DNA from: Castanea sativa
Lineage: Eukaryota; Streptophyta; Magnoliopsida; Fagales; Fagaceae
DNA: 64,000 nt
Reading direction: 5' to 3'
Assembly (NCBI RefSeq): GCF_040712315.1
Contig: NC_134021.1
Location: forward strand, 23,028,501 to 23,092,500
Shown one piece after another: positions 9,487-62,880 of the stretch. How positions within the stretch are numbered: the stretch's first letter is position 1; each line of letters opens with the position of its first letter. The position numbers were made by a program, and so were the translations under genes. Below the pieces are notes generated by a model that saw only the letters and a program-made list of their open reading frames with translations, was not told the origin of the DNA and did no database searches.

Positions 9487-12400
9487 GTGGTAGAAATAAC
9501 TCTTTATTGTTGGGAAGTCCATCACTAGGCACCATGAGGGTGTGGGGCAGAATTAACCATCAAGAGATGGTGATCTTGATTGATAGTGGAAGCACCCATA
9601 ATTTCTTGGATGTTACATTATGGAAGGTGTTGTAGTTGCCTATATCAACTCAGGATTGCTTTGAGGTTAAGGTAGCTAAAGGGGCTGTTCTCAAGACTGA
9701 GGGAGCATGCCTTGATGTTCAACTCAAGATTCAAGGCGGGTTTTGGTGTTGATTTGAATGTTTTACCTCTAGGAGGCTATGATGTAGTATTGGGAACACA
9801 ATGATTGTACTCGTTGGTCTTGATTCAGTGGAACTTCAAGAAACTCACTATGCAATTTGCTTACCTTGGCAAATAAATTCTTCTTCAAGGTCTCAAGCCT
9901 TCTGTTCTTACATTTCAAGATGGGGATCAGTTCTTCAAACCTACTGTTAAGAAAGGCTTGGTATTGCAGATTATGTCCAGTTCTTCTCCACTGCTAGCTG
10001 TACAACAATGCTCAACCATTGATGATCTGCTCTTGGAGTTTGCTAAGTTTTTTGAAGTACCAGTTGGCTTACTTCCCCTAAGAGGGCATGAGCATCAAAT
10101 CATTTTTAAGGAGGGTTCCTCACCAATCTGTGAAAGGCCTTATAGGGACCTATTCTATCAAAAAACTGAAATTGAGAAAATTGTGCATGAATTGCTTGAA
10201 ACTAGTTCTAGTATAGTTAGCCAAAGTCATTTCTCTTCTCCTGTTTTGTTGGTTAGAAAGGCTTATGGAAGTTGGCATATCTGCATTTATTATAGATCTT
10301 TAAACAAGGCCATTGTCAAGGATAAGTACCCTATCCTTGTAGTTGATGAATTGTGTGGTGCTGCCCTTTTCTCTAAGTTGGACCTTAGGTAAGGTTATCA
10401 TCAAATTAGAATGAATGAGAGTGACATTGATAAAACTGCATTTAGGACTCACGAGGGACATTATGAGTTCTTTGTTATGCCTCTTGGTTTGACCAATGCC
10501 CCTTCCACATTCCAGTCCTTAATGAATAAAATCTTTATGCCTTATTTGAGGAAAATTGTCGTAGTTTTCTTTGATGACATATTGGTTTTCAGTAAGTCCT
10601 TGGAAGATCATATACTTCACTTAAGGACGGTCTTATTGTGCTACTTTCCAATCAATTGTATGCCAAGAAGTCCAAGTGTGTCTTTGGTTGTGGTGAGGTG
10701 GAATATTTGGGCCATATTATCTCTGCTGAAGGGGTTAGGATTGATCCTAATAAAACTGAGGCAATGTAGCAGTGGCCTATTCCTAGGTCAATGAAGGCTT
10801 TAAGGGGTTTCTTGGGACTTACAGGGTACCATAGGAAGTTCATTCAGAATTATGGTGTTATTGCAGCACCATTGACTGCTTTATAGAAGAAAGATGCATG
10901 CCAATGGTCCTCACAGGCTGAGTTAGCATTTGTAGCTCTTAAACAGGTTGTTTTAAATCCACCAGTTCTACATCTTCTTGATTTCTCTAAGACCTTTGTA
11001 GTAGAGTATGATGCTTCTGGACTTGGCATTGGAGTTGTTTTAATGCAAGATCATAGGCCTTTGGCTTTCCACAGTCAAGCCCTTAAGGGAAGAAGCTTAC
11101 ATTTGTCCACATATGAGAAAGAATTTCTGGCCATGATCACTGCAGTGAAGAGATGGAGACCATATCTAATTGGCAAGCCTTTTGTCATCAAGATAGACCA
11201 GTAAAGCTTGAAGTTTCTTTTGGAGTAGAGAGTGGGAACTCCTACTCAATAGAAGTGGATTACCAAGCTTTTGGGATACTTCTTCTTAGTTGAATATAAG
11301 AAAGGCATGGAAAGCAAGGCTGCAGATGCACTCTCTAGAAGATTGGAGGGCCCTGATGCTTCATCTAATGACTTGACAGAGATTGGTACTCAAACTGCTC
11401 AACTATACCTTATTTCTTTTCCTTGTCCTACTTAGCTGGATATCTTGAAGGATGGTTATAAGACTGATTCAGAGTATCAGCAGTTGCTCTCTAACTTACC
11501 AGCTGCTGCCCCATCTGATACACCCTTCTCTATTCAAAATGGACTACTACTTTATAAGGATAAGGTGTTTCTAAGTTCCACTTCACCTATGAAACCTTTG
11601 GTCCTTCAGCATGCTCATAGTAGTCCACTGGGAGGTCACTCAGGGTACTTGAAGATTGTGCATCATGTACAATAGGACTTCTTTTGGCATGGTATGAAGA
11701 AAGACATCAAAGAGCATATCAAAACTTATGAGACTTGTCAGAGAATCAAAGTGGATACAATTAAACCTACTGGTCTGTTGTAGCCACTCCCTATTCTAGA
11801 CAAACCCTAATTGAATATAAGCATGGATTTCATTTGGTCTTCCCATATCTCAAGGTTATGAAGTAATCTTGGTAGAGGTTGACAAGCTTACTAAATTTTT
11901 TCACTTCATGCCATTGTCCCATCCTTATACTGCTGCTACAGTAGTTCAAGCTTTCATGAAGGGGGTGTTTAAGTTACATGGATTGCCTAGGTCCATTGTA
12001 AGTGATAGGGATGTTGCCTTCACCTCTGCTTTTTGGAAGGAGTTGTTCAAACTTTAAGGCACTGAGTTAGGTATGTCCTCAACCTACCATCCTCAGTTTG
12101 ATGGGCAAACTGAGGTAGTGAATAGAAGCTTGGAACAGTATTTAAGGGTCTTTGTAGGTGACAGGTCTCATTCTTGGGCTTCATGGTTGTACTTGGCTGA
12201 ATTCTAGTTCAATACCAACTATCATATTTCTACAAAGATGTCTCCATTTGAGGCTCTTTATGGTTTTCCCCCTACTAGGGTCTTGGATTATGTGCTTGGT
12301 CTTACTAAGTTTGCTGCAGTGGATGCTGTGCTTCATGATAGGACTGTTCTATTGAACCTTCTCAAGCAGAATTTGATTGCAGCCCAGGCCAGGATGAAGG

Positions 12401-21944: not shown

Positions 21945-24900
21945 CTACTTTTCATTAATAATAATACCTTTGAAGGTTATTTACATTCCACAAACGTGGT
22001 ACAACATTTTCATCCAGATCTTCCAAAAAATAGCACCTATTCCAGCAACCGAGGTGATGCGATATGGATCTTCCTAATTAGGACCAATTTTTCCCCAAGA
22101 TGGGTTCCTTGTAGTTCCTACCACTTTTCTCAACACCAAATCCCCTGGTGCTAATGGTCTGACCCTCACCCCACATATCGTAGCCCTGTTTAAGTTTTTG
22201 CTGATAATGTGTCAACTAATAATGTGTCAACTGGACTATGGCCACTTCCTTCCATTCATCAACTAAATCCAAACTCTCCCAGAATAACTGATCATTTTTG
22301 TTGGGATCAAATAGACTTGTTTTCAACGTCAGAAATCTTGTCTACAAAAGGATCACAGCTTCGGAGCCATAGGTCATGGAAATCAGGGTTTCCCTAGTTG
22401 ACTAACGAGGAGTAGTACGATATGTCCAAAGAACATGTGGGAGCTCATCAGCCTACCTGCCCTTAGCTTCATCTAACCTCTTCTTTAACCCATTAACTAT
22501 GACCTTATTAACTGCCTCAGCTTGCCCATTCCCTTGCGGATAAGCCGGGTTGAGTACCTATTCCTAATGCCTAACTCACCACAATATCTCTTAAAAGCCT
22601 TGCTATCAAACTGGAGCCCATTTTTCGAGATAAGAGTATGGGGAATCCCAAATCTGGTAACCATATTCTTCCACAAATTTTTTTTTGCATCAACACCCCT
22701 GATATTGGACAATGGCTCAGCCTCAACCTACTTTGTGAAGTAATCTGTTCCAACAAGAAGCCATCTTCAGTTTCCCACTACTCTAGGAAATGGTCCTACA
22801 ATATCCAAGCCCCATTGTGCAAATGACCACAGATTAGAAAGAGGATTTAGCATGCCCCCAAGTTGATGGATGCTCGGGGAAAACCTCTAGCACTTATCAC
22901 ACTTCCTAACATAATCTTGAGCTTCTTTCTGCATATTTGGCCACCAGTAGCCCTGAGTATGACTACCACAGATTCCTTCATGCAATTCCTCCAGTAGTGG
23001 CTCCATCACTTCAGGGTGAACACAAAGTAAAAACGGCCCTGAAAAAGAGCGCTTATACAATTTTTGCTCCTCAGACAGCTAAAAACAATGAGCTTTTCGT
23101 CATATTTTCTCTGCCTCTCCCTTCTCAGTGTGCAACGTTCCCTCCTTCAAGAATGCAACTATGGAGCCCATCCAACTTAGACCAACCCTTATCTGGTGCA
23201 CTCCAACCCTCATTAATCCTGCCTCGGCAGGCATTAATAAATCCTCGACGAGGATGACCCGAGGAAGCCCCTGCTCTGAAGAAGTTGCTAAAGTTGCCAG
23301 AGAGTCTACATGAGTATTCTTGCTCGTCAAGACCTGCTGTATAGAGAAAGATTCAAAACCAAATTGTAATTGTCGAGCTTTATTAAGATATCCCTGCATG
23401 TTATGATCCCTGAATTCTAACTCACCCTGAATTGGTCCGACGACCAACCTTGAGTCTGTAAAGATCTCAACAGTTTTGCCACCTAGTTTCTTCACCATAG
23501 CTACCCCAGTTAACAAGGTCTCATAATTGGCCTCATTATTAGTGGCTGAAAAGCCCAACCTCACGGATTTCTTAATAGTAATCCTTTTTGGGGATACTAT
23601 CACTATCCCAACTCCAGGCCCCTTTTGGTTAGCCACCCCATCAACATAAAGCTTCCATGCTAGATGTCTGTGGACAGCAACTACTGTGACCTGCACCTAT
23701 ACTGATTCCCCCTCCTCGGTAACAACTACTCTTGGGTGTTTAGTAAATTTTGCCACTAAGTCTACAAGCACTTGCCCTTTAATAGTAGTACGAGCATATA
23801 CTTTATGTCAAATGCTCCCAAAATCATCCCCCACTTGGTGAACCTTCTCATATAATCAGACCTCAAAAGTAATGATTGCAAAAGGAGTTGAGGACCACAA
23901 CGGTATGCGCTTAGAAGTAGTGAGGGAGCTTCCTCGTAGCGTGCACTATGACTAAAATGGCTTTCTTCAGTGGCAAGTAACGGACCTCTGCCTCCTACAA
24001 CGATTTACTCACATAATAGACCGATTTCTGCACCCTGACCTTCATCCTTACTAAAACTAAACTCATGGCATGACACATTACTACAATATAAACAAAAAGG
24101 ACTTCCTCATTTTTCGGCCTGGAAAGAATAGGTGGTTGGGACAATTATTCCTTCAGCTCTTTGAAAGCAAGGTCGCATTCTTTAGTCCACTCAAATCCCT
24201 TCCATTTATGAAGGAGCTAAAAAAATGGTCTACATCTAGCTGCTGACCACGAGATAAACCTGTATAAGGCAGCCGTCATTCCGGTCAACTTTTGCACCTC
24301 TTTTGGATTTCAAGGAGGTTGTAAGTCACTTATTGCTCAGATTTGATTAGGATTAACCTCTATCCCCCGATACGTAATCATATACCCCAAAAATTTGCTT
24401 AATATTTCAAACACATTAAGACGTAACTTATGTTTCCTTAATATTTCAAACACATTTCCCAAATCAATTAAGTGCTCAATTGCTACTTTATTGTTCATGA
24501 CCAAATCATCTATATAGAATTCTACATTTTTTTCCAAGTTGAAACTCTAACATTCTAGTCACCATCCTTTGGTAGGTGGATCCAACATTCTTCAAACCGA
24601 AAGGCATCACCCGGTAGTGATAATTTCCAGTGGTAGTCAAGATGGCAGTCTTCTCTTGGTTAGCCAAAAATAATGGTATCTGATGATATCCCTGAAAGAC
24701 ATCCAAAAAACTCATTTGAGGATGGCCGACCATAGCATCAACCAACTAGTCAATCTGAGGAATCAGATTGGGATCCTTGGGGCAAGCCTTGTTCAAATCA
24801 GTAAAGTCCACACACACCCTCCATTTCCCTGACTTCTTCTTCACCACCACTGTATTAGCCGACCATTCTGGATAGAACACCTCCTTGATTGCCCCCGCGC

Positions 24901-52804: not shown

Positions 52805-52809
52805 GTCGT

Positions 52810-52830
52810 TGATGAAGCAGAATCTCGTCG
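52810..52830 (-). mobile_element. 21-bp U5 terminus at the left end
   Basis: Identical to 54740-54760 and to the reverse of 62456-62476. It joins directly to the end of the protease sequence at 52831. Confidence 0.9.
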
Positions 52831-54675
52831 ACTCCGTCTTCGATTGGAAATTTTATCTTTAGGCAGTAGGTGAACGTGGCTGCTTTCCACCTGTTGAGCG
52901 TGGGTCTCCCAATGATCACATTATATGAGGAGGGGCAATCTACCACCAAGAAGTCCAGCTGACGAGTCTGCTGCTTCGGGTAGGCGCCTATTGTGACTTT
53001 TAGCGTCACGATACCCTTGGGGTATACTCTGTCTCCGCTAAAGCTGACGAGGGGGGAATCGAATGGGCGCAATCTACCAGGATTTAGTTTCAACTGTTAG
53101 AAAGCCGGTAAGTACATGATGTCTGCGGAGCTGCCGTTGTCGACGAGGATCCTCTTAGTGTTAAACCCTTTGATTGTGAGTGTTATAACCAAGGGGTCGT
53201 TATGAGGCTGCCTTACTCCCCAAGCATCCTCTTCGCTGAAGAATATATCCTGGTTTGTCCGTCTTTGCTTCAATAGGGGTTCCATATGGACACTGTTTAC
53301 TTGCCTCTGGCATGCTTTCTTGAGTGACTTGTATGATCCCCCCATGAATGGCCCCCCTGCGATTGTGCTTATCTCCCCGATCACGTCCTGTTGTGGTTGG
53401 GACGGGCGAATCTCATTTTTGGACGAGGATTCGCGTTGGCGCTTGTCGACCTCCCTAAACCTGCCAGATTCCCCTTTTTTTACATACTTCTAAAGCTTTC
53501 CTTTTTGTATCAACTCTTCTATCTGTCCTTTCAGGTCTCGGCAATCCTCCTTGTAATGGCCGTGATCCTTGTGGAACCAAAAATATTTGTTTTTGTCGCG
53601 CACATTTGGTGACGAATGCAAGGGTCTTGGCCATTGTAGGTAGCGTTGGTCCTGGATCTGCGTCAAAATCTTGTCAATAGGCATAATTAGAGGTGTGAAT
53701 TTTACCGATCATGGAGTTTCTCATCCCTTCGTTTGTCAATGTCACCTCCTCGACGGCTTGGGCGTTCCCTCTTTTGTCCCCTACGTTCGTCTTCCTTCCT
53801 TCCTTCCTTCTTCGGCCTTTCCTCGTCTACGATGGTTGCCAGTGCGTCCTCAGCATTCATGTACTTTTGAGCTTTCAGTAGCATCTCCGCCATTGTCCGG
53901 GGCGGATTTTTTGCCAGTGAGACGACGAATTCTCTGGACTTAAGCCCTGCTTTAAATGTTGTCAACTAGACCTTGTCGTCCGCGTCGTCCACCTTTAGGG
54001 TCTCTCGAGTGAAGCGTTTCACGTACGACCGCAAGGTCTCCCTCTCTCCTTGCTTAATAGTGAGTAGGTGATCCGTTGGTCTCTTGGGACGTTGCCCCCC
54101 AACAAAATGGCGCAGGAAGGCACTACTTAACTACTCGAAATTGTCGATGGACGAAGTGGGCAATCTCGTGAACCACTCTCTTCCAGCTCCCTTCAACGTA
54201 GTAGGGAAGAACGACACATGATCTCATCAGGGGGCTGTTGAAGGCCTAGGGTCGTCTTGGAAGTATTAAGGTGATCTTGGGGATCCTTGAGCCCATCAAA
54301 AGGCTCGAGCTGAGGCAGCCGAAATTTTGCTGGTACTGGTCGTTCTAAGACCGCCATGGTAAAAGGGGAGTCCGTCGCCCTGACCATTCTATCTAGGCTT
54401 CGATCCGTCTTCTCTTTGATGGCATTTCTTAATTCGTCCATCTCCTTTCTCATTTCTTGGAGGATGTCGGAATGTTGTTCCTCTAGAGTAACGGTCCTCT
54501 GTCGGTCACTCCTTCTGTGGCTGTCCCCCTCGTCCTCTTGGACAGCTCTTGACCGGTTCTCCTCCTGCTGTAGCCTTTGTCTCATTTCCTGATTCTGTCT
54601 GGTGAGTTCTTCGACGGTGGCCGCGAGAGTTCGAACTTGCTGTGCCAAGGCCGCTGAGTCCTGGTTGGATTCCAT
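52831..54675 (-). pseudogene. Tat gag and protease, inverted segment, stopped
   Basis: A minus-strand ATG at 54675 opens MESNQDSAALAQQVRTLAA, a coiled-coil N-terminus with Q/E repeats (54480-54660). The capsid region runs to about 53700 in two frames (SPFTMAVLERPVPAKFRLP, then after a small deletion [17 protein letters not shown]). A knuckle-like [12 protein letters not shown] lies near 53560 with the first C changed to W. Protease is at 52831-53384: RILVDNGSSADIMYLPAF keeps the catalytic DNGS, and [15 protein letters not shown] follows. It ends at EDGV next to the 21-bp LTR piece. Stops such as the CAG-to-TAG before TTFKAG are consistent with deamination. Confidence 0.75.
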
Positions 54676-54717
54676 CTAGAGCTGGTAGGAACCGCGTTCT
54701 CGTTGTATGAGAAAATC

Positions 54718-54738
54718 TTCCCCACAGACGGCGCCAAA
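54718..54738 (-). promoter_or_regulatory. Primer-binding site of the inverted half
   Basis: On the minus strand, TTTGGCGCCGTCTGTGGGG starts 1 base after the LTR end. The same kind of site is at 28451-28468. Confidence 0.75.
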
Positions 54739-54739
54739 C

Positions 54740-55204
54740 TGATGAAGCAGAATCTCGTCGGTTGCTTTGGGGTTCGTCCAGATGGTGCCGGTTGTACTTT
54801 GACGAACCTATGGAAGCAAGAACTTACTCGAATGGTCACCGATGTGGTGCCTGCCACAACGCCTCCGATGCCCTAGTCAGTGTGAAAGAAGGTAACAGTC
54901 AAAATATCAAGAATAACTTAGTATATGTTGTGATGCTGTGTGTACCTTGTATTGGTGTTGTGAGGGTTTTATATATCCTTGTGGACTATAGCCGTTGGGG
55001 TGTTAATGTCTCCCCTAATAACGTCTCTGGCAGAGTAATGGGTTTTAATGTGTTTCCACCGATTCGTCCAGCTTGTCCTGTAACGGTCTGGGACATTATT
55101 GGCAGCATTGAATGGCCTTAATGTTCTCGTTAATGACACGGATGAATGGTCAGGTTCGTCTATGGAGGCGAGCTCGTCTGTGTTCAACTTTGCCAGTACC
55201 ATCA
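54740..55204 (-). mobile_element. Inverted LTR (465 bp) of the Tat element
   Basis: The reverse complement starts TGATGGTACTGG and ends CTGCTTCATCA; the length equals the LTR at 62012-62476. By eye I count about 26 differences, mostly transitions (roughly 94 percent identity). A TATA (ATATATAAAAC, reverse) lies at about 54967-54977. Its U3 start touches pol coding sequence at 55205 with no flank between. Confidence 0.9.
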
Positions 55205-58200
55205 GCCAGAGGTAAAAGGAGACCAAGTTTTAGCCAGAGAATGCTACCAGGCCGTGCTGGCTACAAGGGAAAACCACACGTGGACGATCGACGGAGAAAA
55301 AGAAGACAACATGGAAGCCCTAGAAACAGTAGAACTTGTCGAGGGGGAAACTGCAAAGGTGACGAGGATAGGAATGACCTTAAGCCCCGAGATGAGAAAT
55401 AAACTCGTCCACTTCCTTAAGGGAAACTTGGACGTATTTGCATGGAGTCACGAGGATATGCCTAGTATACCACGCCAAGTAATCCAGAACGAGTTGAAAA
55501 CAGACCCCGAGAAAAAGCCCGTCCAACAGAGACGACGGGTCTTTGCCCCCAAACGAAACCGAGCAATCACAGACGAAGTTAATAGGTTGTTGTAGGCAGA
55601 CTTTATCTGAGAGGTTTATTATCTTGAGCGGCTGGCCAACGTCGTGCTAGTAAAAAAAGCAAATGGGAAGTGGAGAATGTGCGTGGACTTTACAGACCTG
55701 AACAAGGTCTGCCCGAAGGATAGTTTTCCCGTGCTGAGGATAGATCAACTAGTAGATTCTACGGCTGGACATAAGCTACTAACATTCATGGATGCTTTTT
55801 CAGGATACAACCAGATAAAAATGGCTGAGAAAAATCAAGAAAAAAATGCTTTCATCACAAGTCGAGAGCTCTACTGCTACAAGGTGATGCCCTTCGGATT
55901 GAAGAACGCAGGAGCAACATACCAAAGACTAATAAACAAGATGTTCAGCAAGCAAATTGGTAGAAACATGGAGGTGTATGTAGATGATATGCTCGTCAAG
56001 AGCAAAGAGGAATTAACACACCTGGACGATCTGAGAGAGACATTTGATACCCTCCGAAAATATCAGATGAAGCAGAATCCCAGTAAGTGCGTGTTCGGGG
56101 TAGCCTCAGGGAAGTTCTTGGGGTTCATGGTGTCCCAAAGGGGAATAGAAGCAAATCCAGAGAAGGTACAAGCAATACTCAACATGGCGTCACCAAAGAC
56201 CGTCAAGGAAGTCCAAAAGCTCACAGGGAGGATCGCTGCACTCAATAGGTTCGTCTCTAAAGCAACAGACAAATGCTTCCCCTTTTTCAAGACATTGAAG
56301 CAAGCTTTTTCCTGGACTGACGAATGCGAGGCAACGTTTCAAGAGCTCAAGCGTTACCTCAGCAGTCCGCCTGTCTTGAGTCCCTCAAAAGCAGGGGAAA
56401 ACCTTTATTTATACCTGGCAGCATCAGTCACGGCCGTCAGCGCGGTCTTAATTCAAGAGGAGGATAAAAAACAGCTTCTAGTTTACTACATCAGTCAAGC
56501 CTTCCAGGGAGCAGAAGCCAGGTATCCCAGGATTGAGAAGATCGCGTTCGCCCTAATAGTGGCTTCACGAAAGTTACGACCATACTTCGAAGCACACCCT
56601 ATCCTTGTAATGACGGACCAACCTATCAGAAAATCCATAAACAAACCTGAAGCAGCTGGGAGAATGGTCTAGTGGGCAATCGAACTCAGCCAGTTCGACA
56701 TCGAATACCATCCCAAAATGGCCATCAAGGCACAAGCTCTAGCAGATTTCATTGCCAAGTTCACCCTTCCAGAAGATGACGACGGCAAAGACGAGGTAGA
56801 ACAATGGACAATTCAGACTGACGGCTCGTCAGCCCAAAAGAGGGGGGGAGTAGGGGTCATCACAAACACCCCCGATGGAGAAAAACTCAAATATGGAGTC
56901 CAATTAAAATTCCCGACGACCAACAGCGAGGCCGAGTACGAAGGGATACTGACGGGACTAAGACTCGGCAAAGCCCTTGGGATTAAGAACCTGCTTATTC
57001 AGAGCGACTCCAAGCTGGCAATAGGGCAGATCAGGGAAGAGTATGAGGCAAAAGAGGAGAGAATGCAGAAGTACCTCAAGCTGACGAAACATTTAGCCCG
57101 TGGGTTCGATAAGTTGGACTTCGTTCGGATCCCGAGAAACCAAAATATGGCGGCAGATGAGGTTGCCAAAATGGCCTCGTCTGAAGAAGAACCAACGAAC
57201 AGTGAACTTCTCATGGAGATTCAGAAACACCACAGCATCAAAGAAGTCCCAATATTCTCCATTCAGAGCGTAGGTGGTTGGATGGCACCGATCATCTCAT
57301 TCCTTCAAGACGGGCATCTCCCTCGTGATTCAATGGAAGCCAGGAAGATTGAAGCAAGAGCGGCCAGGTTTACGATTTTGAATGATACCTTATACAAAAG
57401 AGGCTTCTCCCTGCCCTATTTGAAGTGTATCGACGAGGAAGAAGCCAAGTACGTCCTTCGTGAAATCCACGAAGGGATTTGCGGAGACCACGTTGGGCCT
57501 AGATCTCTGGTAAGCAAAGTTGTTAGAACAGGATATTTCTGGCCGACCATGCAGGTAGACGCTACGGAGCTCATCAAGAGGTGCGATAAGTGCCAAAGGT
57601 TCGGGAATGTCCAGAGGCTGCCAGCAGAAAAGATGACGACGATTACCTCCCCATGGCCATTCGCACAATGGGAGATTGATATCGTCGGCCCATTGCCCCA
57701 AGGAAGAGGGCAGGTAAGGTTCTCGCTCGTCGCTATCGACTACTTCACAAAATGGGTCGAAGCAGAAGCGATAGGGATGATCACAGAGGCGAGAATCCAT
57801 AGCTTCGTGTGGAGAAATATAATTTGCAGGTTCAGGATTCCAAGAACGATTATTTCAGATAATGGTCGACAGTTCGACAGCTAGGGATTTAAAGACTTTT
57901 GCTCAGGACTAGGTATCTGGCACAAGTTCTCGTTACCTGGACACCCACAGGCAAACAGAAGTAACTAATCGAACACTGCTCAGAATCATCAAAGCCCGGC
58001 TAGAGGAGGCAAAGGGCGCGTGGCCTGAAGAATTGCCCAATGTTTTGTGGGCCTACAGAACAACAGCAAGAACCCCAACGGGAGAGACGCCTTTCAGGCT
58101 CACTTATGGCACTGAGGCGGTAATCCCAGTCGAGGTGGGTGTGGCCAGCACCAGGCTAGAAGTATTCCATGAGGAGAGCAACGACGACCAAATTCGAATC

Positions 58201-58509
58201 AATCTGGACTGCTTAGACGAAGTAAGAGACAAGGCCTCGAGCATGACGATGAAGTACCAACGGAAGATGACTGAATACTATAACAAAAGGGTCAAGCTCA
58301 GAAGACTTGAAATTGGCGACCTCATCCTACGTAATGTGACTACTACAACTAAAAACTCCGCCCACGGGAAGCTCGGTCCCACATGGGAGGGACCTTACAG
58401 AGTCGTGCACTACTCCCGGCAAGGTAGCTATCATTTGGAGACCCTAGACGGGCAGAAGCTCCCGCGACCCTGGAACATTGAACACTTGAAGTACCATCAA
58501 CAGATGTAA
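55205..58509 (+). pseudogene. Tat pol: RT, two RNase H domains, integrase; five breaks
   Basis: The sequence starts in the PR-RT linker ([18 protein letters not shown]). RT: 55600-56150, with KWRMCVDFTDLNKVCPKD, KVMPFGLKNAGATYQ and VYVDDMLVKS (YVDD). First RNase H: 56330-56660. Second, archaeal-type RNase H: 56800-57190 (TDGSSAQKRGG, TNSEAEYEG, IQSDSKLA, NMAADEVAKMA). Two RNase H domains are a Tat hallmark. Integrase: 57450-58500, with HEGICGDH and CDKCQRF (zinc site), WEIDIVGPLP, IISDNGRQFDS, then EVTNRTLLRIIKARL. Stops at 55593, 55608, 56670 and 57882, and a shift at about 57950, break it; each stop fits C-to-T in CAG or CGA. Pol ends LKYHQQM at 58509. This is the best preserved coding block in the window. 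Confidence 0.85.
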
Positions 58510-58597
58510 CCCAAGAATGTACCCATTCCTTAAAATTAATGAAATAACGATTCAAATAATGTGTTCATACAGGTATCGTCAGTAGAAAATTCCGGAA

Positions 58598-58975
58598 ACC
58601 CACTACGGCCTAGACGGATGTACATTACTGATGAAGGAAAAAAGATAAAGAAAAACGCCTAAATAATAAGATTCCGCATAGACGGATGTACATTACTGAC
58701 GAAGGCAAAACATCAAGAAAAATGCCTAAGTAATAAAATTCCGCATAAACGAATGTACATTACTGACGAAGGCAAAAACATAAAGAAAAATGCCTAAGTA
58801 ATAAGATTCCGCATAGACGGATGTACATTACTGATGAAGGCAAAAACATAAAGAAAAATGTCTAAGTAATAAGATTTCGCGTAGACAGATGTACATTACT
58901 GACGAAGGCAAAAACAGAAAGAAAAACGCCTAAGTAATAACGTTCTGCCCAGATGGGTGTACATTACTGACGGAT
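58598..58975. repeat. Minisatellite after Tat pol, unit about 69 bp, about 6 copies
   Basis: Each unit has GACGGATGTACATTACTGA-GAAGGCAAA, AAGAAAAATGCCTAAGTAAT and AAGATTCCGC. It begins about 90 bp after the pol stop, the same place as the unrelated 77-bp array in the other Tat element. Confidence 0.9.
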
Positions 58976-59211
58976 AGGAAGAAATTGACGAGCTTATATG
59001 GATACACAGAAGAACAACGTGTGTAAGTAAATACGATATTATAAAAGCCTAGAAACCAAAGGCAATCACCATTGTTTTTACATTTAAAAACCCATAAACA
59101 CTGGGCTAAAGATATGCTTAACAAAAAATTTAAAGATGTTCTGGAAGTGGAGCCTCAAACATGTTAGGCGCCTTTTAAAAAAAAAAATTTCTGAACAAGT
59201 GATAGGGTCAA

Positions 59212-59813
59212 ACATCTGGAATAGCATCGTCCTCAGCAGGGGCACCAAGGGCAGGAGCTTCGACGACAGGGACGTCAACAGCAGGAAGGTCTCTAAGAGA
59301 GTCAACTGCCGCAGTTTAGGCAGATTCGTCAGCAGAGATCTCCCTATTCACTTACTCCATGTCCAGCGTCTCCAAATCTACCCCGGAAGGGTGCTTGATG
59401 CAGTACCTCCTCAAGAGCTCGAACCCTTTAAAATACTAGTTGAAGAGCACAGAGTTGTACTCCTCAGTCTGCTGGAAGCCCTCAATAGCCCAAGCGGCGA
59501 CGACCTTGATCTTTTCCTTCGCGGCTGCAAGCTGCTCTTCCTTTTCCAGAACCAACTGCTGCTCAACCTTAAGGTCGTCACTCAGCTTCTTGACCTCCTC
59601 CCTGGAATGGTGAACGTCCTCCATCGCAGCTATCAGATCCCTCTTCAGCTTCGATTTCTCCATCTCTAGGACCATGATCCGAGAAAGCAAGGACTCGACC
59701 TTGGCTTCCTGAGCCAGATACTTAGTTGAAAGGTGAACAGTCTCCCCCAACACCTAAAAAAAAAAAAAAAAGAGAAAGGACACGCGAAGGAATTTAATCC
59801 TAGCACACCTATG

Positions 59814-59868
<55 letters not shown>

Positions 59869-61265
59869 GTCACCTAAAACGAGCAGGGTACCTGGACGAG
59901 CTTATGGAGATGACGACTCATCAACTCATTTGGGGTCAAACCCGAGAACACCTTTAGGTCTTCTGCGGTCACGACCCTATGAGCCCGGTCCGTTGCCAAC
60001 TTCTCGTCGTCCCAAATGGTGGACGAGCAAGCAGCCTCCTTCCCTCTATCTGATGTACGAGGCCTTTTCGAAGCGGGTGTTGGGATCTCTTCAACCGAGG
60101 TGGCCGGAGAAGCTGTCCTCGTCGTCTCAACGCCGGAAATCACGGGAGTAGCCGAAGCAGTCAGAGTGACGGAAGAGACTTTCCCTTTGACACAGACCAC
60201 CTTCTTCCCGAGGTTGGACAGAGGTTCTTCCTTCTTAGATCGCATCTTCTCGTACATGCCCTTGTTGAATTTCATCGTCATCTCTGCGAAGGAGGAAAAT
60301 TTTATAAAGGAGCCAGTCAAATAAATACGGCCACAGGATCGAGCCTGACGAACTCAGCTGCTTACTCTTCTTTCCCTCAATATCAAGGCTCCGCAAGACG
60401 TAGGGGGACGGATCGGGGCTGAGATTGTAAAAGGCAAGCGTCCGCGGATCTACTAAGTCGTCCCAGTTTTCGATGGTCTGGGAATACGCAATGGCCGTCT
60501 CAACATGCTCCTTGTACTTGCTTTTCAGCTTTGGCCTCCTTTTAACTGCACAGGAACAAAAGAAGTTACTGACAGTAACATCAGGTCCAACAAAAAAAAA
60601 ACAAGAAAGGAGACTAACGCACCCAAGGTCGGGGTTCCCCACCGACGAAGCAACCTGGGGATCTCACCCCAGTCCTGGCTAGAGGGGGTCTCAAAATCAT
60701 CCCCAAACACAAACACAAATCTGGGCTTCTAGTACCTGAAGGACGAGGGTAAGCCCTTGACGATCCTGGTTCTTCTCTCCCAAGGTACTAGCTTATAATA
60801 CCCGTACTCTTTGGAATCTTTTAAATGATATAAATAGACAAGCTCGTTTACCTTAATCATGTCCCCATTAGCAGCCAACCATATTTCCATACAGTTGACC
60901 ACTATTCTCCATGAATTGGGCATAAGCTGCCTAGGAGCAATCCCCAAATAGGCTAAGAGCTCCATCACAAACGGATGGACAGGAAGCCTAAGTCCACAAG
61001 TAAAAGCGGCCTCATAGAAGCACACTTCACCTGGGAAAAACTGACAAGCCCTCTCCTCGTCAGTAGGCCGACGAACGCGAACTCGTTCTGGAAACTGGAA
61101 CCTATCCCTAAACCTACCCACGGCGTCAGAATCTAACCCACACGCCTCCACGAGGGCATGAAAAGCCCTAACCTCTCTAAAGGTCAACACGGCTGTGTCC
61201 CCCTCCATAGGGTCGCCACTAGACGACAACCCAGTCTCGAGGTCACTAGACCTAACCTCAGACAT
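59212..61265 (-). pseudogene. Antisense ORF of the Tat element: 4 exons, 3 introns, two nonsense changes
   Basis: Opposite strand to pol. The start MSEVRSSDLETG at 61265 is chosen because the homologous region begins there; the frame is open further upstream. Exon 1 (61265-60623) covers RVRRPTDEERACQFFPGEV, FYEAAFTCGLRLPVHPFV and WLAANGDMIKVNELVYLY; one W is now TAG at about 60730. Exon 2 is 60545-60366, exon 3 60283-59892, exon 4 59753 to about 59212, with a TAG at about 59436. Introns 60546-60622, 60284-60365 and 59754-59891 have GT and AG ends, T-rich 3' tracts, and join in frame (for example LVKRRPK, KKKMTMKFNKG). Exon 3 holds an S/T-rich linker and KRPRTSD; exon 4 a coiled coil (KSKLKRDLIAAMEDVHHSREE). 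It resembles the putative gypsy-type transposon family; the role is unknown. Confidence 0.75.
59819..59868. repeat. (TA)n microsatellite inside the aORF intron
   Basis: About 25 TA units within the intron 59754-59891. Confidence 0.95.
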
Positions 61266-61499
61266 TGACTGTGGCTCCCTCACCAAACCTTCGAACCAAT
61301 CGACTGACTTTCGGAGCAATGGGAACAAGTCGCCTAAAACAACGCCTAAGCTACTACCCTCAAAAAAAAAAACCCCCGAATTGGGAAAAACACCTAAGGA
61401 CCCACCTAAGCGAGCAAAGAGAAAGGAAATCAAAGGACAAGCTTCTCTAACCTCTAAATTACTGACCATGGACTCCCAGGCAAAATACAGGCAAATAGG

Positions 61500-61914
61500 A
61501 AAGTGCTAAAATTCCCACAAAAAAGAAACAAACAAAAACATAGAGAAAACCAAGAAGCAGAAACCAAAAAGAAATCAGATTTTTGCAAAGAGAAAAGGAA
61601 AAAAGAAAGAAGAAGAGAAAGCATACCTCAAGGAAGAGAAGCAAGAAGCCCAGCAACCAAACACGCACCAACTCAGAGAAAAATGAAGAAATAGATGAAG
61701 AAGATGCTCAAAGGGATAAACTGAAATTTGGAAGAAAATGAAAGGTAAAGTAGGAGAAGAGGAGTTTAAGAACCAAAAGGAAGAAAAACCGAAAATCGGC
61801 GGGAAACCCAAGGTCATGAGGACATAGGCCTTCTCCAACCACATCATGCCACGTGGCCACGACCCACGTAACACCGCCACTCACATTTAATGCGGCACGA
61901 AATCCCAAAGGTCG

Positions 61915-61947
<33 letters not shown>

Positions 61948-62011
61948 AAAACTTTTCGTCTCCCACAGCCGTCAGGAAACTCACTGACGACCATGGAACC
62001 CGGGGGGCAGC
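61500..62011 (+). other. 3' untranslated part and polypurine tract of the Tat element
   Basis: An A-rich non-coding stretch includes an A-run at 61917-61942. It ends AACCCGGGGGGCAGC directly before the LTR start at 62012, which is the likely polypurine tract. Confidence 0.6.
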
Positions 62012-62476
62012 TGATGGGACTGACGAAGTTGAACACAGATGAGCCCGCCTCCACAGACAAACTTGACCATTCATCCGTGTCATTGACGAGAACATTAAGG
62101 CCATTCAATACTGCCAATAATGTCCCGGACCGTTACAAGACCAGCTAGACGAACCGGTGAAAACGCATTAAAACCCATTACTCCGCCAGAGACGTTATCA
62201 GGGGAGACATTAACACCCCAACGGCTATAGTCCACAAGGATATATAAAGCCCTCACAACACCAATACAAGGTACACACAGCATCACAACATATACTAAGT
62301 TATTCTTGATATTTTGACTGCTACCTTCTTTCACACTGACTTGGGCATCGGAGGCGTTGTGGCAGGCACCACACCGGTGACCATTCGAGTAAGTTCTTGC
62401 TTCCATAGGTTTGTCAGAGTACAACCGGCACCATCTGGACAAACCCCAAAGCAACCGACGAGATTCTGCTTCATCA
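62012..62476 (+). mobile_element. Right LTR (465 bp) of the Tat element
   Basis: It starts TGATGGGACTGACG and ends CTGCTTCATCA. TATA TATATAAAGC is at 62241-62250. GTCGT follows at 62477, matching the left flank at 52805. Confidence 0.9.
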
Positions 62477-62534
62477 GTCGTTATCAAGTGGAACCTTTAA
62501 TTTCAGCTACATTTCTCTCTAGAAAAAAGAAAGG

Positions 62535-62880
62535 CTAAATGCAAAACTAATCCTTTATATTTTACCAAAATTCATTTTAGTCTTTTTAAATTTATTTTTG
62601 TTCATTTCAATCCTTTAATTTTCAAGTTTATTCAATTAAGGCTTTTTCATCGACTTTTATTATATGTTGTGGTTAATTTTTCAATCTTTCTAAATTTTTC
62701 TTCAATTTTTTTAAATTAAAAAAATTCTAATTAATAATTGAAGAATATTTTCTAGTTTTTTTTTTTTTTTTAATTTAACAAAGTTGATGAAAAGTCCTTA
62801 ATTGAATAAATTTGAAATTTAAAAGACTGAAACGAACGAAATAAAAGTTAGAGGATTTAAATGAACCTTTAATTTCCTTT
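62535..62880. mobile_element. Foldback MITE
   Basis: The arms TTCAATCCTTTAATTTTCAAG...TTCAATTAAGG...TTTTTCATCGACTT (62605-62656) and AAGTTGATGAAAAGTCCTTA...TTGAAATTTAAAAGACTGAAA (62781-62834) are inverted copies. AT-rich centre with a T-run; no coding frame. Confidence 0.6.

Follow-up and report, generated by a model that had tools for sequence, protein, structure and literature searches.

In a 64,000-nucleotide stretch of the Castanea sativa genome (RefSeq assembly GCF_040712315.1, contig NC_134021.1, positions 23,028,501 to 23,092,500, hereafter the window), we find a Tat-type Ty3 retrotransposon whose left part is inverted against its right part. The element spans 52810-62476 and lies between 5-bp target-site duplications (TSD) GTCGT, at 52805-52809 and 62477-62481. 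Its long terminal repeat (LTR)-gag-protease (PR) part is turned round against the reverse transcriptase (RT)-integrase (INT)-antisense open reading frame (ORF)-LTR part, with gag-PR on the minus and RT-INT on the plus strand. In place of the usual pair of one U3 and one U5 end, both outer ends are U5 ends, each adjoining a TSD copy. Judged from its sequence, the element was very probably rearranged at the stage of complementary DNA (cDNA) and then inserted once, a stage that we favour because exact U5 and U3 termini need no coincidence there.

A probable single insertion by two U5 ends

An initial annotation of the window had proposed the duplication around the whole block, the U5 nature of both termini and the inversion, and all three hold. 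The left terminus (52810-52830) matches the end of U5 at 21 of 21 positions, the 3' LTR ends at 62476, and LTRs, ORFs and Pfam matches agree on the inverted order. At up to three mismatches the U5 21-mer occurs three times in the window, each time as a U5 end, where shuffled sequences predict 0.00 copies. Exact element ends together with a 5-bp TSD are as expected of insertion by integrase, and a 5-bp TSD flanks all seven canonical pairs of the family that were read. The normal TSD supports the proposal that the rearranged molecule integrated once, by two U5 ends.

Read from the left, the inverted U5 piece (52810-52830, minus strand) is followed by the end of the protease, gag and the primer-binding site (PBS), all inverted (52831-54736, minus strand, with the PBS TGGCGCC... 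reading down from 54736), and by the inverted 5' LTR (54740-55204, minus strand), whose U3 terminus is at 55204. Four nucleotides, GCCA (55205-55208), separate this terminus from the rest of pol (55209-58509, plus strand). The 3' LTR stands in normal orientation at 62012-62476. The gag and protease pieces gave no match in the Pfam search; they are named by position and by the relatives described below.

The two LTRs differ at 26 of 465 bp (Kimura two-parameter distance 0.059) and are the most diverged of seven pairs, the six canonical pairs having distances of 0.015-0.048. In a tree of 32 LTRs, built without the partial LTRs L039 and L062, L065 and several other fetched LTRs, they are nearest relatives (support 84/79; 96% of 200 bootstrap trees). 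Because they are sisters, both probably derive from one parent. In the same tree one of the six canonical pairs, L027/L028, is not paired (8%) and another, L035/L036, is paired weakly (55%).

Separate insertion of the inverted part, with its own target duplication at 55205, is rejected: the five bases to either side of it, CGTCG and GCCAG, differ, and a single breakpoint in pol is common to the two halves. Both junctions are unique in the host genome (716 Mb, 13 contigs). At up to three mismatches the U3::pol junction has 19 matches, of which the window's own is exact and the other 18 carry two or three mismatches; a reversed control pattern gives four. The U5::PR junction has 58, again with the window's own as the one exact copy; the six with two mismatches, all read, are ordinary LTR ends, and of the 51 with three mismatches a part was read. 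One exact copy of each junction gives no sign that the insertion was copied on in its rearranged form.

There is little chance that the element inserted in normal order and that repair of a chromosomal break, with filler DNA, only afterwards turned its left part round. The TSD would survive such an inversion too, and the terminal TGATG is common to U3 and U5, so that 9 bp of filler could span the left joint; plants do make templated fillers. However, the left break would have to fall exactly at the LTR terminus, five LTR bases would have to be duplicated together with a filler that ends exactly at the U5 terminus, and the inverted LTR carries no trace of flanking DNA. An artefact of assembly is less probable still. 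The structure is seen in one assembly only, yet a TSD, exact U5 termini and a unique 4-nt filler are hardly to be expected from a misassembly; moreover, the breakpoints fall outside the LTR repeat (94%) and the window lies inside a 46-Mb contig.

The U3::pol junction carries a filler

Relatives of the element show what pol looks like where it is uninterrupted. When 55100-55700 was used as query against the host genome, and 40 of 2320 candidates (the window itself among them) were scored, 34 of the 39 other matches began at 55209, and the remaining five between 55202 and 55211. Seven uninterrupted copies were fetched (L003 and L024 are one copy, counted once). They are 92.4-95.5% identical to the window over the 1450 bp on the PR side of the gag-PR half and 89.3-95.2% identical on the RT side. 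In all seven the PR-RT linker reads GGAGTCGG(C/T)GAGG, namely GGAGTCGGCGAGGTAAAA in six and GGAGTCGGTGAGGTAAAA in the seventh (L007). Among 120 listed of 1847 protein relatives, a regular expression shows the linker in 51; Gly precedes the Glu/Lys/Gln position in 46 of these, and Pro in none. Scans of viral contigs gave no confirmed relative of the element.

At the junction the intact LTR terminus CATCA is followed by GCCA and then by the pol sequence GAGG. GCCA agrees with the linker CGGC of the fetched relatives (CGGT in one) at none of four positions and, as their linker lacks it, is filler rather than pol. Since pol leaves off at GGAGT(CG) and resumes at GAGG, two to four linker bases are gone (CGGC, its CG being ambiguous) and GCCA is extra. 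Thus of the earlier claim that U3 joins pol exactly where the PR half ends, the meeting of the halves stands, to within 2-4 nt, and the exactness does not.

An 8-nt match that includes the filler, AGCCAGAG, is found again in pol about 24 nt downstream. When all 256 possible fillers were tried, three, including the observed one, equalled this match within 50 nt and seven within 200 nt, on either side and either strand. GCCA thus resembles a local template, as would be expected of template switching or end joining. The GC of GCCA may be an unprocessed cDNA end, with a match of two bases only: an uncut cDNA end should carry extra bases, in the eight 3' LTRs read the polypurine tract is separated from TGATG by AGC in four and by ATC in four, and the window's own 3' LTR has AGC.

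The filler bears directly on the route proposed in the initial annotation, half-site autointegration. According to that model the U3 end of the cDNA attacks the PR-RT linker, giving reverse(R)-reverse(L)-R, where L is LTR-gag-PR and R the rest, and one R arm then collapses from 7 kb to 21 bp. The model accounts for the intact CATCA at the junction and yields two U5 ends. Integrase, though, attaches the processed CA-3' end to target DNA with nothing in between, and here GCCA stands between CATCA and GAGG. In addition, the collapse would have to halt by chance within 2-4 nt of the attacked site, for which our rough estimate is about 1 in 1000. If the 21-bp U5 head is made directly, no such coincidence is required. 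As integrase strand transfer leaves no filler, plain autointegration is unlikely, and we regard the half-site model as improbable. Two-ended autointegration is rejected: it predicts a joint between pol and the very terminus of U5, and in the element it is the internal side of U5 that is joined.

The U5::PR junction lies in a short near-match

The 21-bp arm had been read as U5 throughout. The match of 21 bases stands, with 19 (52810-52828) that are certainly U5 and a final CG (52829-52830) that is common to U5 and pol. The sequences that meet here are U5 CCGACGAGATTC and pol GTCGGCGAGGTA, giving GTCGACGAGATTC in the window. The switch falls within the shared CG, inside a 7-nt near-match to the linker of all seven fetched relatives. 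CTCGTCG and the linker CGGCGAG form six Watson-Crick pairs and one G.T pair; only CG is strictly shared, and the parent's own linker is taken from its relatives. If the two halves are counted apart, a 7-nt 3' tail finds a fit this good, one G.T at most, at 0.065% of positions for each primer length; with the GGT of L007 the fit needs two wobbles and falls outside that limit. The near-match would suit priming by a 21-nt minus-strand strong-stop DNA.

Companion insertions in the same genome

Two small insertions of the family bear on this reading. The first, L019 (C7:42082534-42082784; 2035-2285 of the fetched locus), is 251 bp long, has U5 at both ends and is flanked by the TSD ATGAG. It consists of 57 nt of U5, inverted and joined to LTR positions 271-465, and its arms are identical at 55 of 57 positions. 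In the window's 3' LTR a TATATAA has its first base at LTR 230; 41 nt further downstream stands the A of a CA, position 271, which is plausibly the 5' end of the RNA. If R starts near 271, L019 holds R-U5 sequence only, and it looks like integrated strong-stop DNA. The second, L066 (C2; 235-810 of the fetched locus), is 576 bp long and comprises a full LTR, GTTTG (GTT plus the first two bases of the PBS) and LTR 363-465, between TSDs ATATG. It has one U3 and one U5 end and gives no match to the gag-PR, RT-INT or antisense-ORF region; it looks like the product that transfer of a truncated strong-stop DNA to the PBS would leave. Separately, L019 and L066 show both features that are combined in the window element.

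At up to two mismatches, 445 places in the genome resemble the U5 end. A scripted census took all 38 exact T-type ends, all 52 exact A-type ends before a non-G base and 82 A-type ends among 100 listed of the 445, and sought places where a minus end has a plus end after it at a distance of up to 15 kb. Four places were returned: the window, L019 and two others. At C5:39330923/39342655 a PBS follows the plus end, which excludes a U5-U5 insertion. The pair at C4:39005204/39016978, whose sequence was left unread, is taken as the inner ends of two normal neighbours, because neither is among the non-G ends. The census covered exact ends, those of the A type before G as far as they were listed, so that two U5-U5 insertions are a lower bound.

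A proposed route through misplaced strong-stop transfer

We propose, with about an even chance of being right, that the element arose by premature and misplaced strong-stop transfer followed by tail-to-tail joining. A minus-strand strong-stop DNA primed by transfer RNA, about 21 nt long and with the 3' end CTCGTCG, would leave its template early and pair with the PR-RT linker CGGCGAG of the element RNA. Its extension would run through PR, gag and the PBS and, after the usual plus-strand transfer, would take in the whole 5' LTR, yielding a fragment bounded by U5 and, at the opposite end, by U3. A second minus strand, transferred in the normal way, would copy the 3' LTR and the antisense ORF, INT and RT regions and stop where the first already sits; stopping at an occupied place would make the halves meet within 2-4 nt. 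The inner, non-U5 ends, U3 and pol, would then be joined with a 4-nt filler, and integrase would insert the U5...U5 molecule, making the 5-bp TSD. Taken as precedents from the same genome, L019 and L066 point to errors of copying from RNA rather than to self-attack by DNA.

Several points weigh against this route. The steps from early release to end joining are inferred from a single copy. In six of the seven relatives the 7-nt match contains one mismatch, in the seventh two, and perfect identity at the U5::PR switch is 2 nt only. At the joint of L019 the overlap is only 1 nt, so that L019 is no evidence of priming by annealing; a plus-strand switch could also account for L066, and LTR 271 is a putative 5' end of the family's RNA. 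Finally, fewer strand transfers are needed to account for these bases if one finished cDNA suffered a double-strand break that was repaired with a templated filler. In that scenario a finished linear cDNA broke at the PR-RT linker, and LTR-gag-PR was rejoined in reverse by its U3 end, through microhomology and with a templated GCCA; the free PR end then copied the last 19-21 nt or so of U5 up to the cDNA end, and integrase used the two U5 ends. It fits with every part being present once and 2-4 nt lost at one point, with the likeness of the filler to sequence about 24 nt away, with the microhomology at U5::PR and with the sister relation of the LTRs. However, the broken end acquires its U5 terminus only if a further, separate event is assumed, and the strong-stop-like L019 and L066 are left unexplained; we hold this scenario to be possible but rather unlikely. 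For the family as a whole it may be, at somewhat less than even confidence, that strong-stop DNAs which are truncated or misplaced, as U5-headed by-products of early reverse transcription, are joined inner end to inner end, giving molecules that end in U5 on both sides, and that integrase accepts U5-U5 for U3-U5.

Other features of the element and the window

On the plus strand, pol comprises RT-RNase H (55644-56672), a second RNase H with integrase (56718-57884) and an ORF without Pfam match (58033-58509). The Pfam order is RVT_1, RT_RNaseH, RVT_3, Integrase_H2C2, with an rve match below the curated cut-off; RT-RNase H-second RNase H-INT is the order that we take to be characteristic of Tat elements. 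Within the RT coding sequence (MKQNPSKC), 56066-56079 is a 14-nt match to the U5 terminus (0.02 expected in shuffled sequences at up to one mismatch), probably by chance. After pol, a 68-bp tandem repeat of 5.3 copies (58611-58972) precedes the antisense ORF (60729-61469, minus strand; PF04195, putative gypsy type transposon), whose position between INT and the 3' LTR is presumably another Tat feature. The polypurine tract ends in GGGGGG, followed by CAGC, just upstream of U3 (62002-62011, plus strand).

A search for the empty site, made with the right flank alone, returned a dispersed repeat besides the window itself, with 40 of 1313 candidate places scored, the window's included. This repeat (62530-62865) also matches its own reverse strand and is presumably MITE-like (miniature inverted-repeat transposable element). 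Elsewhere in the window, ORFs at 23100-23696 and 9958-10392 resemble, by their translations, pieces of retroelement RNase H and RT.

Relation to known systems and implications

Pulsinelli and Temin, in 1991, reportedly traced retroviral deletions to strand-transfer errors in which strong-stop DNA moved to a wrong internal place; no inverted U5-U5 provirus is known to us from that work. In autointegration, LTR termini are joined by integrase, giving inversion circles and truncated circles. The products of Ty1 and retroviral autointegration are described as circles in the consulted portions of PMC4751563 and PMC2644782; they resemble the window element in that the inverted order arises in cDNA before chromosomal integration, whereas the window element is linear and integrated, has a filler at U3::pol and has U5 joined on the inner side. 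In plants, LTR retrotransposons form template-switch complexes (Sabot and Schulman 2007, PMC1950507), in which two elements share a third, internal LTR and the outer LTRs match. These too reflect strand transfer that went wrong ahead of a single integration, with a single pair of TSD copies, yet the window element has one part inverted and both ends U5. Self-priming of minus-strand strong-stop DNA in human immunodeficiency virus type 1 (HIV-1) gives, as far as the consulted part of PMC4668388 goes, aberrant DNAs that begin with strong-stop sequence; the DNAs described there arise during reverse transcription and are not integrated copies, whereas L019 sits in the genome between TSD copies. When HIV integrates with one bad end, according to the consulted part of PMC5041404, host enzymes do the joining and the host DNA there is rearranged, unlike the clean TSD of the window element. 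Autointegration circles, plant template-switch complexes and strong-stop self-priming are thus already known. Among the matches listed in an open-access literature search, judged by titles and the starts of abstracts, we find no integrated, self-inverted U5-U5 plant element, which may still be in print.

The window element looks like the trace, left in a chromosome, of a plant Ty3-type integrase that inserted a long molecule by its two U5 ends and made a normal TSD, in which case the asymmetry of U3 and U5 would not be an absolute requirement. LTR annotators that expect direct repeats would presumably miss it as one insertion and, if the reading is true, U5-U5 insertions would be a recurring class overlooked by annotation based on paired direct LTRs. 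Together with L019 and L066, the element suggests that failed strong-stop products reach integration and that, through U5-U5 insertions, they could be counted in any genome.

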